IMG/VR virus record: IMGVR_UViG_3300032245_000505
Coordinates: 1-30,004 of that record
Origin: a virus
Length of the DNA: 30,004 bases
Direction: 5' to 3' (one strand)
Under the pieces are notes generated by a model that searched no databases, was not told where the DNA came from, and saw only the letters and a program-made list of their open reading frames with translations. How positions within the stretch are numbered: the stretch's first letter is position 1; the number at the start of each line of letters is the position of its first letter. Below, one piece after another: positions 5,063 through 27,780 of this stretch. The translations under genes and the position numbers were made by a program.

Positions 5063-6925
5063 TCAGTTTGTAAGTAAGAAGTTCACGCGGGTTTCAGCGG
5101 TAGGTGCAGTTAAGAAATAGATCGTGAACGAGCCAGCGGCAGCAACTACGCGGATACCTGTCGCAGTTGTGTCATTCGTGGCAATCGTAACATTGATCAC
5201 GCTGGAAGTCGTGCAAAGCGAGTTTGTCACGACAAGGGATGTCGCGGCGGCGGCAAAGTTGACTGAACCTGACGGCTTGTTGATCGTTTGCGCTCCGGTG
5301 GTTCCACCTGCTGTAATGGTCTTCGGGATATTAAGAGATGAGCTTGTGGTGATTGTCCCCGCCACAAGCAGATTCGTCGCGCCAGCATCGGTCGTGTTGC
5401 CGATGGACACGCCACCCGATGCGTTCATGTAGAACGAATTGGATGGTGCTTCGTTGGCAAAACTGAAGGGTGTGGAAGTGATCGCCGTTCCTGCGTCGTT
5501 GAGAAGTTGGATCGAAAAGCGGTTGGATAGGTTGCCAAACCGCATGTATCTTTTCCCGGTGGTGTTTGAGAGTGCTATTGCGTTCGCCCACGCCTCTTCG
5601 TAGCCCGTCATCGTCATGTAGGCCCCCGATTGTCCTGTCGCCGCAGGGAAGCCGACGATATTGAAGAAGGCCCTACCGCTCCCGTCCGTTGTAAAGTTGC
5701 AAGCAGTCGCATTAACGTCCTGAGCGACGAATACCTGACCTACCGATCCCCGTGAAATTGTTGGCGTGGTCAGCGTTGGGGAGGTTTTCCCCACGAGCCC
5801 GCCTGTGCCGGATGGTGTGCCAGTAAGCAGCGTTGCCACTCCAGTCCCGAGTCCCGAGACGCCAGTTGAGATCGGGAGACCTGTTGCGTTGGTAAGCGTT
5901 CCCGAGCTTGGCGTTCCGAGTGCTGGAGTCGTTAATGTCGGACTTGTGAGTGTCTTATTTGTCAGCGTCTCTGTGCCCGTCAGTGTTGCCAATGTTCCGC
6001 TCGTCGGCAGTGTGACACTAGTCGATGCAGTCGTCGTCAGAGTCAGCGCAAAGTTGCCGCTCGTCGTCAGATTATTCGCAAGCGAAAGATCGCCAGACAG
6101 AGAAACTGTCCGCGCTGTGCCGGTTCCGTCTTTGATCCCGAATCCGCCCGTGGCACCATAAATTGCAGTGCGTCCTGCTACAAGAGTTGGAGCCGTGCCT
6201 TGCAGCATGACAAAATGCCCAGCCGCACCTCCTGTTGGAATGCTGGCAAAGTGGCCGCTATTGGTAGCGTCGCCGCTGACGTTTGCAGTTCCGTTGAAGG
6301 CAAGTCCGAAGATATTCCGTGAGGTAGCCAGCGCGGTTGCTGTGGCGACGTTTGATTTAGTCAGGGCGAGCGTGCCATAGTCGTCTGGAAATTCAAATAC
6401 ACGATCATTTGTGAGATTGGTCGCCTTAATGGTTCCATTTGTATCTGTCGCATTTCCAATCGTCAATGACGGCGTGCCAGATCCAGTAATTGACACTGAT
6501 TTTGCACTAAATATTCTCGCCGCTAGATCGCCTACCGATGAGAATTTAGCGACCTTATTAGTAACTGACCCATCATTTGCGCCAGATGATGCGTCGGTGA
6601 TGTCCGCACTGACATGAGTGTGGACCAAGGCCGAGTAAACCGTTCCAAAATAGCTTGCCAGAGTCGCCTTGAGATTCGCCCATGTGACCTTCTTGAGCGC
6701 GTTGGATGCTGCCGAGTCGGTCAATGGGATCGTGTCCGCGTCAACCGGAGTCGTCTTCGCTGTCGCTGCGGTTAGGACTGCGCCGATGCTCGCGTTTGTG
6801 ATAACGGCATCGGCCCCGGCTGGGCCTTGATTGATTTCGACAATATCAGGCCCGAATCCACCGTCGATTTCAACTGATGAAGGAACGTTACCTGGAACGC
6901 TGATTTCGATGATTGTCAGTGACAT
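5063..6925 (-). CDS. Tail fibre / receptor-binding protein
   Basis: A 620-residue low-complexity protein rich in Thr, Ser, Gly and Ala. The N-terminus has a short collagen-like spot (GPAGAD) and an HTH-VSADIT segment common in phage fibres. Residues 315-390 carry the repetitive stretch ending in TNKTLTSPTLTTP and again TSPTLTTPTI, typical of trimeric fibre shafts. The C-terminal 200 residues are less repetitive and may hold the receptor-binding tip. It lies at the end of the tail module, just before the lysis genes, as fibre genes often do. I see no clear endosialidase-type chaperone motif. Confidence 0.8.
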   Translation of the reverse strand: MSLTIIEISVPGNVPSSVEIDGGFGPDIVEINQGPAGADAVITNASIGAVLTAATAKTTPVDADTIPLTDSAASNALKKVTWANLKATLASYFGTVYSALVHTHVSADITDASSGANDGSVTNKVAKFSSVGDLAARIFSAKSVSITGSGTPSLTIGNATDTNGTIKATNLTNDRVFEFPDDYGTLALTKSNVATATALATSRNIFGLAFNGTANVSGDATNSGHFASIPTGGAAGHFVMLQGTAPTLVAGRTAIYGATGGFGIKDGTGTARTVSLSGDLSLANNLTTSGNFALTLTTTASTSVTLPTSGTLATLTGTETLTNKTLTSPTLTTPALGTPSSGTLTNATGLPISTGVSGLGTGVATLLTGTPSGTGGLVGKTSPTLTTPTISRGSVGQVFVAQDVNATACNFTTDGSGRAFFNIVGFPAATGQSGAYMTMTGYEEAWANAIALSNTTGKRYMRFGNLSNRFSIQLLNDAGTAITSTPFSFANEAPSNSFYMNASGGVSIGNTTDAGATNLLVAGTITTSSSLNIPKTITAGGTTGAQTINKPSGSVNFAAAATSLVVTNSLCTTSSVINVTIATNDTTATGIRVVAAAGSFTIYFLTAPTAETRVNFLLTN

Positions 6926-22189: not shown

Positions 22190-23629
22190 TCATCTGATTC
22201 TCCCTGCTTTGGCTGGTTCTTGTGCTACTTTTGGAATGTAAGCGTTACCCGATACAAATTTTGCGTATTGGTCAATGAACGTGAGGTGAACGTCACCCGT
22301 CTCTCCGTTTCGGTTTTTAACGAGCATCAGCGTTGCCACGCCGTCCAGTGCTACCCGCTCTTCGTCAGTCTCGGCAAAGTAAATCGGGCGGTGGAGTAGC
22401 CCGATATAGTCGGCGTCCTGCTCAATCGCACCCGACTCCCGTAAGTCAGACATTTTCGGGATGCCTCGCTTAGTGATCACCTCCGATGCCCTGTTGCCAG
22501 TTTTCCCCACTCGGCGGTCCGTAGATTGGCGGTTGAGTTGGCAAAGGGCAATGATCGGGATTTCGAGTTCCTTCGCCAGTGATTTGAGTCCCGCTGAGAT
22601 TTCCGCAATTTCCCGCTCCCTGTTGCCGTTGGCCTGTTTGGAGGTTGAACGCATGAGTTGGAGGTAATCGACAGCGATGATCTTCAAACCGTGCCGCCGC
22701 TTTTGTCTCCTAGCCTTGGATCTTAGTGACGTGATCGTAATGGATGGCGTGTCGTCGATCACAAGGCGCGAGTTTTTTATCCTCAGTGCTTCGCGCTGGA
22801 TTTTCTGCTGTTGCTCGGTTGTCAGTGTTCCTCCCATTGCCAGCGACCGTGAATTGATCTTTGCCATCGAATAGAGCATCCGGGAAACGAGGCTTTTGCG
22901 GGACATTTCGAGGCTGAAGATCATCGCGGGTTGCTCGCCCCACAAGCAAACGTCCTCGATCACGTTGCCCATGAACGCGCTCTTGCCCATGCTTGGCCTT
23001 GCCCCGATCACGAAAAGCTCGCCGTCCTTTAACCCGTCCGTCATCCGGTCGAGGTCGTCAAACCCGGTCATTAATCCGGGCGGCTTCCCTTTTCCGGCAA
23101 GTCGGTCTTCGATTTCAGCAACCACCTCGATGATCGCGGTTTTGACATTTCCGGTTTCCTGCTTTTCGCAATTCTCCCTGATGCCGCTTATTTGGGCCTC
23201 AGTTGCATCTAGAACGGCTTGCACGTCGTCCGGTGACTCATTCACCCGCTCAATGGTATCGGACGCGCTGGAGAGCAACTGACGAAGAATGAACTTCTCC
23301 TTCACGATTCGGAGATGCTGCCGGAAATGGCCGTGGGTTGTCGCGTAGGTGAAAATGCCGGTAATGCCCCCCAGCCCTCCAAAGTCGTTAATCCTGCCCC
23401 GATCGGTCATTCTTTGCACAAACTCGATCAGCTCGCAATGACCCTTCTCGTCGTTCATCTCGTGAAGCTCGTCGAAAATGAGCGAATGGGCAGGGATGTA
23501 GAAATGGTCGGAAATCAGTGATTCTTCGGCGGCGACCGCAAACCATTCTTGCGGGTCTTGGATCAGCGACGAAAGCAGGGACTTTTCAGCCTGGATCGCG
23601 TGGGGAAGTGGGTTGAGGTCTGGATTCAT
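22190..23629 (-). CDS. dnaB: Replicative DNA helicase, DnaB family
   Basis: A 479-residue hexameric helicase for unwinding at the phage replication fork. The N-terminal domain (about 1-105) begins LPHAIQAEKSLLSSLI. The RecA-like core has Walker A GARPSMGKS (209-217), catalytic Glu in SLEMS (239-243), Walker B AVDYLQL (319-325), ALCQLNR (361-367) and SDLRESGAIEQDAD (394-407). The stretch between the last two motifs is about a dozen residues longer than I recall for E. coli DnaB. It overlaps the initiator gene as ATGA, fitting an initiator/loader-helicase pair. No primase is visible in the window. Confidence 0.93.
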   Translation of the reverse strand: MNPDLNPLPHAIQAEKSLLSSLIQDPQEWFAVAAEESLISDHFYIPAHSLIFDELHEMNDEKGHCELIEFVQRMTDRGRINDFGGLGGITGIFTYATTHGHFRQHLRIVKEKFILRQLLSSASDTIERVNESPDDVQAVLDATEAQISGIRENCEKQETGNVKTAIIEVVAEIEDRLAGKGKPPGLMTGFDDLDRMTDGLKDGELFVIGARPSMGKSAFMGNVIEDVCLWGEQPAMIFSLEMSRKSLVSRMLYSMAKINSRSLAMGGTLTTEQQQKIQREALRIKNSRLVIDDTPSITITSLRSKARRQKRRHGLKIIAVDYLQLMRSTSKQANGNREREIAEISAGLKSLAKELEIPIIALCQLNRQSTDRRVGKTGNRASEVITKRGIPKMSDLRESGAIEQDADYIGLLHRPIYFAETDEERVALDGVATLMLVKNRNGETGDVHLTFIDQYAKFVSGNAYIPKVAQEPAKAGRIR

Positions 23630-24387
23630 GGATTGTCGATGAAGTAGAGGGTGGCTTTGTCAATTTCGCCGTTCCAGTGGTTCAGCAGGGTTTCGATGGT
23701 TCTTCGTCGGTAGTCCTCTCCTTTGGGAATCTCGACGTTGTAAAATCGACGGAGCAGGTCGATTGCTTCCGTGTCGGGTTGGAGAGACTCAAGCTGCAAT
23801 GCCTCGGCAACAGTCCACCGGGTTGATGGTCTACGGCCAAGAATTGCGCCAACGTCATTCATGGTGGGGGTGTTGGCTTCCATCTGCTGGGTCTTTTGCT
23901 TTGATGGGGTGAACTTGCGCCATTCTGGACGGATTCCAACAAATGGCCCGTCTTGCTCTTCTACCTCTTCTGTACCATTACCTTTACCTATACCTATACC
24001 TATGGGGCTTGGAAGCCCCTTGGAAGCCCCTTTGGGGATTAGGGGTTTTACCTCCTTGAATCTGGCGGATTGATCGACAAGAAAACCGATGATTTGCCGA
24101 TGCGCCGGATTGGCCGGATTGAGTCGATCATTCTTCTGATGCTTGAGGAAATTCTTCACCCAGCACCATCCTCCGCGCTCCACAATGCCCCTTTCAAGCC
24201 CCTTCAAAGCCCCTTCTATGTGCCTTGAATCTAGCTTTGTGTGGAACTGAACTGAATCCATATCGACCTCCCAAAAACCGGCATTGTCGCAGCGGTCGAT
24301 GATGTAGAGGAATACGAGCTTATGCGCCCCGGCTAATCCTCGAAACCAAGGATCATCCCATTTTTGAGTTTCCGTGAAACGGCGCAT
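23626..24387 (-). CDS. Phage replication initiator / helicase loader
   Basis: A 253-residue protein. The first 100 residues have the winged-helix pattern of phage replication proteins (RRFTETQKWDDPWFRGLAGAH, then LVFLYIIDRCDNAGFWEVD). A Gly-Ile linker (residues 129-138, IGIGIGKGNG) leads to an acidic segment and a C-terminal helical domain (residues 170-253) that may contact DnaB. Lambda O and similar initiators have this plan, with origin DNA bound by the first domain. The gene's own DNA contains two clusters of 11-bp repeats, so it probably holds the origin. It lies directly upstream of dnaB and overlaps it by four bases. Its start overlaps the HNH stop as TAATG. Confidence 0.8.
   Translation of the reverse strand: MRRFTETQKWDDPWFRGLAGAHKLVFLYIIDRCDNAGFWEVDMDSVQFHTKLDSRHIEGALKGLERGIVERGGWCWVKNFLKHQKNDRLNPANPAHRQIIGFLVDQSARFKEVKPLIPKGASKGLPSPIGIGIGKGNGTEEVEEQDGPFVGIRPEWRKFTPSKQKTQQMEANTPTMNDVGAILGRRPSTRWTVAEALQLESLQPDTEAIDLLRRFYNVEIPKGEDYRRRTIETLLNHWNGEIDKATLYFIDNP
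23980..24037. repeat. Origin candidate A: hexamer tract and 11-bp GCCCCTT repeats
   Basis: Four ACCTWT hexamers in tandem (23980-24003) are followed by a perfect palindrome GGGGCTT-GG-AAGCCCC (24004-24019) and two tandem TTGGAAGCCCC units (24009-24030, period 11), ending CCCCTTTGGGG. They encode the linker of the initiator protein, as lambda iterons do in gene O. Because 11 is not a multiple of three, the DNA repeat does not come from a protein repeat. Confidence 0.6.
24187..24219. repeat. Origin candidate B: three 11-bp GCCCCTT repeats
   Basis: Three contiguous 11-bp units begin with GCCCCTT: GCCCCTTTCAA, GCCCCTTCAAA and GCCCCTTCTAT. They share core and period with the cluster at 24004-24037, about 150 bp away. 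The reading frame differs in each unit, so coding constraint does not explain the repeat. Confidence 0.6.
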
Positions 24388-24857
24388 TACTTTTGTTCCT
24401 CCCGTTCAAAGATACCCTTCAAGTCCCCAAAGAAATTCTTCAATTCCTCATCGGTTGCCTCCCCGTCCCATTCGGGATCATGCTCCTCAAGATTGTCTTT
24501 AGGTCCGTCGTTGGAAGTGTCAAATTTGAGCGCGGAAAGCTCCAGTTTGCCCGAATTTGCGAGCATCATTGACATCGCGCAAATGTCTCTTGGATGAATC
24601 GACGCGATCATCCGGTAAAGTTCCTCGCGTTCCCATTCGGCCCGACCGTGGCAGGTCTCGCAAAGAACGTGAAGGGTCTTCTGCGGGTAACTCCATGGCG
24701 TCGCGCCTTTCCGGTAGTAGCCGTGATGCACCTGGAGGTTGTTTTTCTTGTCGCCACACCATGAGCAAGTCCATTCAGCTTTTTCTAGGCACTTGAGGCG
24801 AAGTCGCTGCCATCGCGGGTCGCGTAGCTTTTCGATGTAGGTTCGGTATGTTCCCAT
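24387..24857 (-). CDS. HNH endonuclease
   Basis: A 156-residue HNH nuclease. Zinc-binding pairs CSWC (31-34) and CETCH (66-70) flank the HH of the HNH core (QVHHGYY, 42-48). The C-terminal half (80-156) is acidic and helical and not recognised. Phage HNH proteins act as homing nucleases or, when near the terminase, help packaging; here the neighbour is the replication initiator, with which it overlaps as TAATG. The ATG at 24857 follows directly on a T-rich terminator tail, so its expression may depend on read-through or on antitermination. Confidence 0.85.
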   Translation of the reverse strand: MGTYRTYIEKLRDPRWQRLRLKCLEKAEWTCSWCGDKKNNLQVHHGYYRKGATPWSYPQKTLHVLCETCHGRAEWEREELYRMIASIHPRDICAMSMMLANSGKLELSALKFDTSNDGPKDNLEEHDPEWDGEATDEELKNFFGDLKGIFEREEQK

Positions 24858-24863
24858 AAAAAC

Positions 24864-24924
24864 AAAAAACCCGCCCGGATTGCAGCCGACACCCTAGCAA
24901 GCTAGGCACTGCGCCCCGGACGGG
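24864..24924 (-). terminator. Long-stem terminator abutting the HNH start
   Basis: On the minus strand CCCGTCCGG pairs with CCGGGCGGG (9 bp, one wobble) and runs into six T, a G and five T, after which the HNH ATG begins. Nested pairs (GCAG with CTGC, CCTAG with CTAGG) extend the stem. An alternative small hairpin (CCCC-GTCC-GGGG) would break the main stem. An attenuator is therefore possible. Confidence 0.75.
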
Positions 24925-24945
24925 GAAAATAAATTGGTGGTGTGA

Positions 24946-24970
24946 AAGGAACAGGTGTCTGCCGTTCCTT
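24946..24970 (-). other. 7-bp inverted repeat AAGGAAC-N11-GTTCCTT
   Basis: A perfect inverted repeat in the leader between the composite element and the terminator. It could form a hairpin in the HNH leader RNA or serve as a protein site. Nothing else identifies it. Confidence 0.4.
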
Positions 24971-24977
24971 GCTGGCG

Positions 24978-25008
24978 AAACTTTGCCCTTTTTAGGCTAC
25001 TTTGTCAA
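24978..25008 (-). promoter_or_regulatory. ACTTTG/TTTAGGC/ACTTTG composite element
   Basis: The plus-strand reading gives ACTTTG (24980-24985), TTTAGGC (24991-24997) and ACTTTG (24999-25004), the same parts as in the elements before the portal and protease genes, though here the ACTTTG copies are direct repeats. On the minus strand a perfect TTGACA (-35-like) overlaps the element but no good -10 box follows at 17 bases. A promoter for HNH, initiator and dnaB is likely in this area. Confidence 0.4.
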
Positions 25009-25032
25009 TAGATCTGTTTTAATATCCCTGCC

Positions 25033-25111
25033 TCCGCTGCCGCCCTCCCGGCCCTTCTAAGATTAGGCGAGCGGTCAGCGGATGGCGCGACTCGTCGGCA
25101 CACGCCGGGAG
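25033..25111. ncRNA. Possible pseudoknotted RNA
   Basis: TCCGCTG (25033-25039) pairs with CAGCGGA (25076-25082), and CTCCCGGC (25045-25052) pairs with GCCGGGAG (25104-25111). The two perfect helices interleave, forming an H-type pseudoknot on either strand. It lies just after the helicase-methyltransferase stop. The strand order on the plus strand is like that of HDV-type ribozymes, but the spacer of five bases and the lack of a clear catalytic core argue against calling it one. Confidence 0.35.
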
Positions 25112-25126
25112 CCTGGGGAAAGTTAT

Positions 25127-27640
25127 TCAAAGAGCGGAGGCGAGATCGAATAAGGTTGGAACGCAAACCTCATTCTCGGCCATCTCACAATAGCCGACTG
25201 CATTTTTCCAATACTCCTCATTCAGTTCAGTCATCCACCCTTTGCGCTCCATTTTGATAGCCTGGAACGGGACGCTTCCGATGCCTCCGAACGGATCATA
25301 AACGATCTCGCCCTTGTTGCTGTAGCGCGTGATCAGTCGTTTGATAATGTCAAGCTGAAGCGGGCAGACGTGGTTTTCCTGATTGCGGCGTGTTTGCTCG
25401 CTGTTCAGTGTCCGCATGCGGGCAATGTCGGTCCAGATGTCCTTGTTGCGCGAGATCGCAGGGAAGAGCATAAATGATGATGGCAACTTTCCGATGCCTT
25501 CCAGCGCTTTTGCTAGCTGCGCGTGTTGCTCATGGCTGTAGCCGCCTTGCTTACTGTATTCGATCCAGAGTGCCTTGATTGCCTCGTGGCTCATGTGCTT
25601 CATGATCTCAGGATCAGGCAAGCGATTGCCGTTGGAGCGCCACAATCCGGCCGCGTCAAGTTGCCAGTCGGCTCGGGTGTATTCTTCTTTGGGTTTGCTC
25701 ACCGGGATGTCCGCGTAGCCATTCGATTGATCGCTCGGTAGCTTTCGGAAAACCAATACATATTCGGGCATCCCTGCGCCCATCTTGGAGCTGTCCTTGG
25801 CATTCTCAGACCATCCTAAGCGGTAGGTTTGATTATTCTCGCGCACCACATCGGTGTCGATTGTGATGCGGGCAATGAGTCTAAACCCTGCGCTTCTGAA
25901 TGCTGCTGTGGTCATATCGGAAAACGGATCGACGGTTGGGAATCCGTCGCCGGTCACGTTACCGAATCGGATGCGATCCTTTACATGGATTGCCGCGATT
26001 CGACCAGGTTTTAGGACTTTCAAAAGCTGCGGACATAAGTGGTCCATCTGCTTGAAAAACTCTTCGTTGTCGGAATTGTGTCCAAAATCGTTGAAGCTGG
26101 GCGAATACTCATATTGATTCCCGAACGGAATGGACGTGCAAATCATGTCGACCTGATTGTCTTCCCAGTCCATGAGTTCCAAGGTGCAATCGTTTCGGAT
26201 TGCCTTGAACATGTTGCTTTTGATTTCTGTGCGCTCGCCACCGGTGAGCATTGTTCTGATTAGTTCCATTGAGTTGTGAGTTGATAGTTTGTATTCTTGC
26301 ATGATCGCGGTCATTTTCTTTTGCAGCTCCTCATGGCGCGACCATTTCGCCTTGAGTTCTTCCACGATGGCATCTTCGGATTCCATGTGGATGATGTGAA
26401 TGTTTACTTGTTCCGGCTGTTGGAAACGGTGGATTCGGTGGATAGCCTGAATGAAGTCGTTGAACTTGTAGCCGACTCCAAGAAAGATCGCATCGGAACA
26501 ATGCCGTTGGAAGTTGCAGCCTGACCCGGCAATGATCGGCTTTGTTGCAAGAATCCGATATTCCCCACGAGAAAACCCCATGATGAGTTCCTCACGCTTT
26601 TCCAAGTCCTGCGACCCGTAAACCGTCTTGGCTTCCGGTATTTGCTTTTCGATGGCGTCACGTTCCGATTCAAGGTCGTGCCAAACAAGCCAGTGCCGTT
26701 CAAGTCCATTGTCGTCAATTAGCTCTTTGGCTCGCTCGATGCGCTTTTTGATCGTTGCTCGTTTGGTTTCGGCTGAATCTTTTAGACCGATTGACTGATC
26801 GTTCAAGAGCTGCGCTTGTCCCCATGAATCGACTTTTGACCATGCTTGCGTGTGATCATCTTGGAGCCGGTGCCATTGCACGTTTATTGCTGGCAGGTCA
26901 TATCCGCTGTCAAAATAACCGAGGTCGGACGGACGTTGAATGAATGCGGCCCATGATGCCAGCCATAGCCAGAATTGCTTTTCCATGTGTGGATAAAGCG
27001 TAAGGTTGTTGGCTTGGCTGGAATCACGCTGAAAAAATCTGGTAAGAGCTTCACCGGTATCCATGATGCCAAGGAAGCCTCCGTAGTGGATCAATTCTTT
27101 GTAGCGGTTAGGCGATGGCGTTGCCGTGAATACAAAACGATACGGCACGGCCTTGAACAGCGGAAGGAACGTCTGATAGGTCTTGGAACCGAACGAGCGC
27201 AACACGCTAGCTTCGTCCATTCCGACGCCTTGAAATCCGTTCACGTCAATCTTGCCATCTCGGACTGATTCGTAATTCGTGACGTAAATTCCAGGTTGAT
27301 CAATCTCCTCATTTCGACGGATGAACTTTAGATTCATCCCCATTGCCGGCCCATCCGATTGAGTGAACTCTTGCCTCACTCCAAGGGGGCAAATAATCAG
27401 GAACGATCCGTTGGTCTTTTCGCAAACCCACTTTGCAAGTTGCAAATGCATGCGCGTCTTTCCAAGTCCAAAGCTGGCAAAAATTGCGCGACGACCGCCA
27501 CGGATTGCCCATTCGCAAATATCCATTTGATGAGGAAAAAGCGAATGATGGCAAGGTGATGGCGGATCGAATCCGCTGACCTCGGCTTGAGGGACTTTCC
27601 CAAGCAGGAAGTCGATGTAGTCTTGTTTTTCGGTGCTCAT
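25127..27640 (-). CDS. SF2 helicase - DNA methyltransferase fusion
   Basis: An 837-residue two-part protein. The helicase part (about 30-450) has Walker A FGLGKT (57-62), MDEAS (141-145), FTATPS (171-176) and QAIHRIHR (398-405), as in SNF2-like SF2 ATPases. The methyltransferase part (about 475-837) has TSIPF (502-506, the catalytic motif IV), HVCPLQ (757-762) and DPFGGIG (782-788, SAM-binding motif I), giving the beta-class order IV then I for N6-adenine or N4-cytosine methylation. I recall similar phage fusions carrying TSIPF, so this form is not a defect. It may protect phage DNA from host restriction. The ATG at 27640 is preferred over one at 27730, because the longer form would read through the terminator hairpin. 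Confidence 0.85.
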   Translation of the reverse strand: MSTEKQDYIDFLLGKVPQAEVSGFDPPSPCHHSLFPHQMDICEWAIRGGRRAIFASFGLGKTRMHLQLAKWVCEKTNGSFLIICPLGVRQEFTQSDGPAMGMNLKFIRRNEEIDQPGIYVTNYESVRDGKIDVNGFQGVGMDEASVLRSFGSKTYQTFLPLFKAVPYRFVFTATPSPNRYKELIHYGGFLGIMDTGEALTRFFQRDSSQANNLTLYPHMEKQFWLWLASWAAFIQRPSDLGYFDSGYDLPAINVQWHRLQDDHTQAWSKVDSWGQAQLLNDQSIGLKDSAETKRATIKKRIERAKELIDDNGLERHWLVWHDLESERDAIEKQIPEAKTVYGSQDLEKREELIMGFSRGEYRILATKPIIAGSGCNFQRHCSDAIFLGVGYKFNDFIQAIHRIHRFQQPEQVNIHIIHMESEDAIVEELKAKWSRHEELQKKMTAIMQEYKLSTHNSMELIRTMLTGGERTEIKSNMFKAIRNDCTLELMDWEDNQVDMICTSIPFGNQYEYSPSFNDFGHNSDNEEFFKQMDHLCPQLLKVLKPGRIAAIHVKDRIRFGNVTGDGFPTVDPFSDMTTAAFRSAGFRLIARITIDTDVVRENNQTYRLGWSENAKDSSKMGAGMPEYVLVFRKLPSDQSNGYADIPVSKPKEEYTRADWQLDAAGLWRSNGNRLPDPEIMKHMSHEAIKALWIEYSKQGGYSHEQHAQLAKALEGIGKLPSSFMLFPAISRNKDIWTDIARMRTLNSEQTRRNQENHVCPLQLDIIKRLITRYSNKGEIVYDPFGGIGSVPFQAIKMERKGWMTELNEEYWKNAVGYCEMAENEVCVPTLFDLASAL

Positions 27641-27650
27641 ATTTTTAGGC

Positions 27651-27708
27651 AAAAAAAGGCCCACCTGAAGTCGTCCCCGCTCGGAAATCCGAACGGCATC
27701 AGGCGGGC
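27651..27708 (-). terminator. Two-part hairpin terminator just before the helicase-methyltransferase gene
   Basis: On the minus strand GCCCGCCTGA pairs with TCAGGTGGGC (10 bp) around an inner perfect 8-bp hairpin (CCGTTCGG-ATTT-CCGAGCGG), followed by seven T. The start codon at 27640 lies 10 bases after the T run, leaving no space for a separate promoter. Read-through control is likely. GCCTAAA, part of the recurring late motif, lies between T run and ATG. Confidence 0.8.
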
Positions 27709-27780
27709 AAAGTTGTTTGTTGGTTGTCATCGGGACGAACGATGCGGCCTCAAATTGGCCGGGATTCGGGAAAGGTCAAA

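Follow-up and report, generated by a model that had tools for sequence, protein, structure and literature searches.

The window, a virus record of 30,004 bases analysed at its full length, encodes a Mu-like portal and head-protease, a DnaB helicase and a helicase/methylase fusion, and all the annotated genes examined in it lie on the minus strand. The gap at positions 24858-25126 is bounded upstream by the stop codon (TGA) of the 867-residue helicase/methylase ORF (25127-27730, minus strand) and downstream by the ATG of an HNH endonuclease-like gene (24387-24857, minus strand; phrog_119, E-value 1.7e-12). An earlier note on this DNA had described the 269 bp as free of genes, and indeed no ORF of at least 60 residues occurs between the helicase/methylase stop and the HNH start. 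The HNH gene is followed by a gene of 253 residues (23626-24387, minus strand), which precedes the DnaB gene (22190-23629, minus strand; PF03796). The 253-residue protein did not return any family match, and we infer from its position and from the repeats that the gene harbours that it is a replication initiator. These AAGCCCCTT-type repeats, arranged in two clusters with an 11-bp spacing (~23997-24043 and 24180-24226), are likely replication-origin iterons, and the origin therefore probably sits within the putative initiator gene. Of note, a Shine-Dalgarno sequence is missing at most listed gene starts of the window on the minus strand, a possible sign that the host can do without it; its absence before the HNH gene is thus unremarkable.

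The gap comprises two separable structured elements of the minus (gene) strand: block A (25025-25126) and block C (24858-24924) are set apart by a variable spacer, block B (24927-25024). The minus-strand fold of the whole gap exceeds that of shuffled sequences (z -2.49, reached by 2 of 200 shuffles), and by part the z-scores are -2.78 for block A, -2.51 for block C (folded as 24858-24926), and -1.17 for block B. The plus-strand fold is not beyond its shuffles (z -0.78), so that the proposed folding above chance holds for one strand and fails for the other. The energy z-scores are modest since GC richness lowers the energies of the shuffles as well, a worry that we share with the earlier note; the energy test would be weak by itself, and it is the comparative evidence that decides the structure question.

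Block A is a conserved structured motif of ~100 nt (~97 nt) that starts right after the helicase/methylase TGA on the minus strand. Its fold is a three-way junction made of a closing stem P1, a hairpin HP1, and a long hairpin P2. The P1 5' strand (25116-25119), UCCC in the window and UUCCC in most members, pairs with GGGA (25025-25028) both in the minimum-energy folds of members and in the consensus fold. HP1 (25089-25113) reads GGCUC.CGGC-GUGU-GCCG..GAGUC, with a 4-nt loop ending in GU. P2 (25030-25086) exhibits an invariant GCC/GGC base, a bulged A, two helical segments of 7 bp and 6 bp, and a variable tip. Single-sequence folding of the members, performed without any alignment, mostly returns the same three-way junction, L153 and L113 showing a somewhat different pairing around P1. 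The junction segments CAG, GCGCCA, and GGCAGGGA are near-invariant across members while the stems are rewritten, which suggests that the core may be a binding site. The comparison of L127 with the window is telling in this respect: the two strands of the 7-bp segment P2a each share only 1 of 7 letters between the two phages and all 7 pairs are kept, while J1, J2, the GCC/GGC base, the bulged A, J3, and P1 are unchanged. Likewise, in L127 and L124 the inner pairs of HP1 become CGCU/AGCG and its outer U-A pair becomes C-G.

In total, block A was identified in nine distinct phage sequences with varied neighbour genes (the window, L003, L084, L092/L093, L113, L153, L154, L127, and L124), with one copy per phage record. 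L092 and L093 were found with a 23-base probe from block A, and L084 with a probe from block C. Together with the window and L003 they form the closest group, in which block A is 96-98% identical. A covariance model, R1, built from four sequences was then run on the loci around relatives of a 106-residue gene and on loci returned by a pattern scan, and it reports L113 (90 bits), L153 (80), L154 (72), L127 (61), and L124 (56). A doubtful hit in L114 (positions 1700-1812; 23 bits, E-value about 0.001-0.002) keeps the shapes of HP1 and P2 and lacks the junction core; it is possibly a very distant member. The tip sequence of L114, TAACCGGGGTGGTTC, is also found in L127.

The genes around block A differ between members. 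In L003, the helicase/methylase is 97% identical to that of the window and block A 98% identical, while block B is replaced and the inner stem of block C is new. In L092/L093, block A lies between the 106-residue gene and a ParB-like gene, and in L084 it is located after a remnant of a methylase end and before a different HNH-like gene, these names having been assigned by eye. The L084 remnant (~5680-5770) consists of ~90 bp of a methylase 3' end resembling that of the L153 methylase so that a module deletion ended near block A. By blastn, the nearby gene blocks common to the window and to L084 or L092 are mostly 85-91% identical, a few reaching 93-94%. As the 96-98% identity of block A exceeds that of most neighbouring genes, block A is conserved as a unit in itself, beyond a recently shared gene block. 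In every member it is co-oriented with the genes, and a visual reading of the ORFs places DnaB-like or initiator-like genes downstream of it (an initiator-like gene only in L154 and L127). In the window, L003, L113, L153, and L154, it begins at the stop codon of the upstream gene, or only a few bases away, these upstream genes being unrelated. In L127 and L124, it overlaps the end of the upstream ORF, and the next ATG follows ~26 nt further on without a terminator between them.

Covariation among homologues, which the earlier note had named as a check, was analysed by pair counts against shuffled and slid controls, rather than with R-scape, and the outcome is strongly positive. The alignment used, A5, was fitted to the covariance model, and the unaligned single-sequence folds mostly agree with it. 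Among the nine confirmed members, standard pairs make up 96.9% of the pair cells (86.0% in shuffles) and two-sided changes affect 16 of the 37 pairs (6.6 in shuffles), neither value being reached in any of 500 shuffles. Over eight distinct rows, with L114 included and L153 and L154 left out, 22 of 37 pairs display two-sided changes, which no shuffle reached. When the 3' strands are slid by one to three columns, pairing falls from 97% to 32-53%. Because the changes cluster in few lineages (L127/L124; L113/L153/L154; the window group), the independent events are fewer than the counted cells and pairs. By the shuffled and slid controls, block A thus carries the compensatory changes that characterize a structured RNA family, and we consider it very probable that it is a genuine one. 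This makes the case for a densely structured non-coding region stronger than first claimed.

The pair cells read on the gene strand hold 45 G.U against 5 A.C combinations. Folding of the other strand would predict the reverse, so this excess supports an RNA made from the gene strand; the covariation is accordingly that expected of a gene-strand RNA, single-stranded DNA of the same strand being also possible. An element on the plus strand was rejected, given its weaker fold and a pair variation that fits G.U on the gene strand.

The suspected pseudoknot fared differently. The interleaving complementary stretches are present in the window, namely 8 bp between CTCCCGGC (25104-25111) and GCCGGGAG (25045-25052), spanning 25045-25111 on the minus strand, and 7 bp between TCCGCTG and CAGCGGA. 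The 8-bp helix retains 8 of 8 pairs only in the window, L003, L084, and L092, with G-C changing to G-U. It drops to 7 pairs in L113, 6 in L153, 4 in L127, and 3 in both L154 and L124, and it is mutually exclusive with HP1 and with the tip of P2. An H-type pseudoknot was hence rejected, since its 8-bp helix is not conserved in homologues and a nested folding is supported instead. The 8-bp complementarity is best read as chance within a GC-rich element, or at most as a feature of the closest group. The promoter-like element did not hold up either. Block B contains a TTGACA (25003-25008) followed by a weak -10 box, CAAAGT (24980-24985), that matches at 3 of 6 positions, and the promoter scan does not report it. 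This spacer, which also includes a hairpin AAGGAACGG/CCTGTTCCTT (24946-24970, minus strand), is hardly alignable with L003, L084, or L092.

Downstream of the spacer, the terminator that had been noticed touching the HNH start is confirmed. The block C hairpin (24870-24924, minus strand) has an outer GC-rich stem of 10 pairs (CCCGUCCGGG/UCCGGGCGGG) and an inner hairpin with a 6-nt 3'-side bulge, and is followed by the U tract TTTTTTGTTTTT (24858-24869) that abuts the HNH ATG (24857). With a GC-rich hairpin of about -30 kcal/mol and a U tract, it has the make-up of an intrinsic terminator, and a simple terminator scan with a loop limit of 8 missed it. Since the U tract extends right up to the HNH start codon, no room is left for a promoter after block C. 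The outer stem and the U tract are kept in the window, L003, L084, and L113, whose inner stems differ in their letters yet have much the same shape, including a 5-6-nt 3'-side bulge, and L092 presents an unrelated hairpin of like design at this position. Block C is thus a separate, conserved, bipartite element shaped like an intrinsic terminator. In the window, L003, L084, L113, L092, and the doubtful L114, block A is followed downstream by a strong hairpin with a U tract that immediately precedes a gene start, and no strong intrinsic terminator was found near block A in the examined sequence of L124, L127, L153, and L154. Another terminator-like hairpin (27659-27708, within the segment 27640-27760 of the minus strand), with a 3' bulge and a T run, occurs shortly before the ATG at 27640, which is probably the true helicase/methylase start. 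Counterparts of this hairpin are present before the helicase/methylase start of L003 and L113, as well as before a 740-residue gene in L154. Several accessory genes of these phages thus have a strong hairpin of terminator shape immediately ahead of their starts. Upstream of the hairpin at 27659-27708 are two adjacent small hairpins (CGGCC/GGCCG and CATCG/CGATG) that recur in relatives.

Database searches returned no relative of block A among known RNAs. Rfam 15, including self-cleaving ribozymes and riboswitches, gives no match at gathering scores in the window and ten loci, and the gap searched at E-values up to 10 yields only a weak RybB hit (E-value 5.8). A known RNA family or ribozyme was hence rejected, which leaves self-cleavage without family support. 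Annotated phages report only short matches with E-values of 1 or more, and plasmids none. In a genome collection, a pattern scan run without a positive control returned 45 loci, none of them above chance with the covariance model. Block A was likewise not found in about 1,570 sampled genomes of the phyla of four of these loci, nor was the 106-residue neighbour gene in 388 genomes from the first such phylum, both searches again lacking a positive control. A further relaxed pattern scan of viral sequences gave no new members, relatives of the helicase beyond L003 gave no block A, and no description of a similar element was found in the open-access literature. We therefore call block A a new family of phage-encoded structured RNA, within an already known kind of element. 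Structured RNAs are poorly catalogued in uncultivated phages, and the block A alignment may be used by others to build a search model.

The gap is best read as a regulatory boundary inside a phage early operon, immediately ahead of the replication genes (HNH-initiator-DnaB). In phage lambda, the nutR-tR1 region contains a cis-acting RNA site, followed by a terminator and then by the replication genes, among which the initiator gene carries the iterons. The window shares this order of RNA element, terminator, replication genes, and iterons in the putative initiator gene, and no boxA/boxB-like element such as that of nutR was identified for block A. More generally, terminators stand ahead of most early genes of lambdoid phages and call for a terminator-resistant polymerase, and the HK022 putRNA, of roughly 70 nt and two stem-loops, suppresses terminators in cis as an RNA alone (PMC9378689). 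Compared by architecture and description, putRNA and block A are both phage early-operon RNAs with two hairpins. However, put, which suppresses termination through the zinc-binding domain of the RNA polymerase beta' subunit, has about 70 nt, two stem-loops, and no closing stem, whereas block A has ~97 nt and P1, and is located mid-operon rather than near an early promoter. Block A would be transcribed within the early polycistronic RNA and would act in cis through its near-invariant junction core, which would bind either RNA polymerase during elongation or a factor of phage or host origin. Transcription could then pass the terminators guarding the downstream genes, block C in the case of the window, by a put/nut-like antitermination or attenuation. 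Since lambda nutR-tR1-O-P and HK022 put have a comparable order of RNA element, terminator, and replication genes, this control of transcription in cis is ranked first, tentatively, with a probability of roughly 35%. Three observations speak against terminator passage by block A: for 4 of the 9 members a search near it revealed no strong terminator, the hairpin at 27659-27708 lies upstream, where block A could not serve it, and the architecture of block A is not that of put. An attenuator, with the terminator before the HNH start, is also possible; an alternative pairing between blocks A and C is absent from the minimum-energy fold of the gap, and no conserved pairing of this type was found. 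With its near-invariant core, covarying stems, and steady site before replication genes, block A is a clear and testable candidate for an RNA that controls early transcription in phages outside the lambdoid model.

In the early genes of phage T7, RNase III sites are structured intercistronic elements of polycistronic mRNA, and block A is comparable to them in its intercistronic position. It might thus be a processing or stability element of the early mRNA, the P2 hairpin, of about 20 pairs with bulges, being cut or protecting an end and thereby setting the dose of the upstream and downstream genes. Although its contact with the stops of unrelated genes and its place ~26 nt before an ATG in L127 and L124 agree with such a role, which we hold to be somewhat unlikely, the conserved three-way junction core and the single copy per record set it apart from the T7 sites, and the near-invariant unpaired junction and closing stem exceed the needs of a double-strand cutter.

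Its single copy, its portability between gene contexts, and its strong sequence conservation would also suit a non-coding RNA acting in trans, released from or transcribed within the early region and binding a host or phage protein. Blocks A, B, and C of the window would together be the gene of this RNA, and terminator C would end its transcript. We regard this as unlikely, however, as no clear promoter was found upstream of block A, and in L127 and L124 the overlap with an ORF end and the nearby ATG, with no terminator in between, do not fit a separate transcript. A bolder form of the antitermination reading, in which the block A junction alone modifies the host RNA polymerase, would extend protein-independent antitermination to phages that are not lambdoid, its targets being the bulged terminators that precede accessory genes; this seems quite improbable.

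Alternatively, block A may act as DNA, its single strand folding into a hairpin that serves as a replication-origin, primosome-assembly, or recombination site. Its position next to replication genes, at a mosaic junction of modules, and its single copy are in line with this, yet the G.U-rich pairing on the gene strand and the presence of origin-like repeats in the putative initiator gene, ~0.8-1 kb further downstream, make it a decidedly unlikely explanation. Lastly, that the gap is a mere GC-rich recombination junction with an ordinary terminator, as its mosaic breakpoint and modest energy z-scores might suggest, is highly improbable and largely refuted by the compensatory changes across diverged members, block A being besides more conserved than most neighbouring genes of L084 and L092.

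In L153 and L154, operator-like repeats (GTAACG...CGTTACAGTAACG) are located between block A and the next ATG, upstream of a gene of 263-275 residues that in L153 precedes the DnaB-like ORF.
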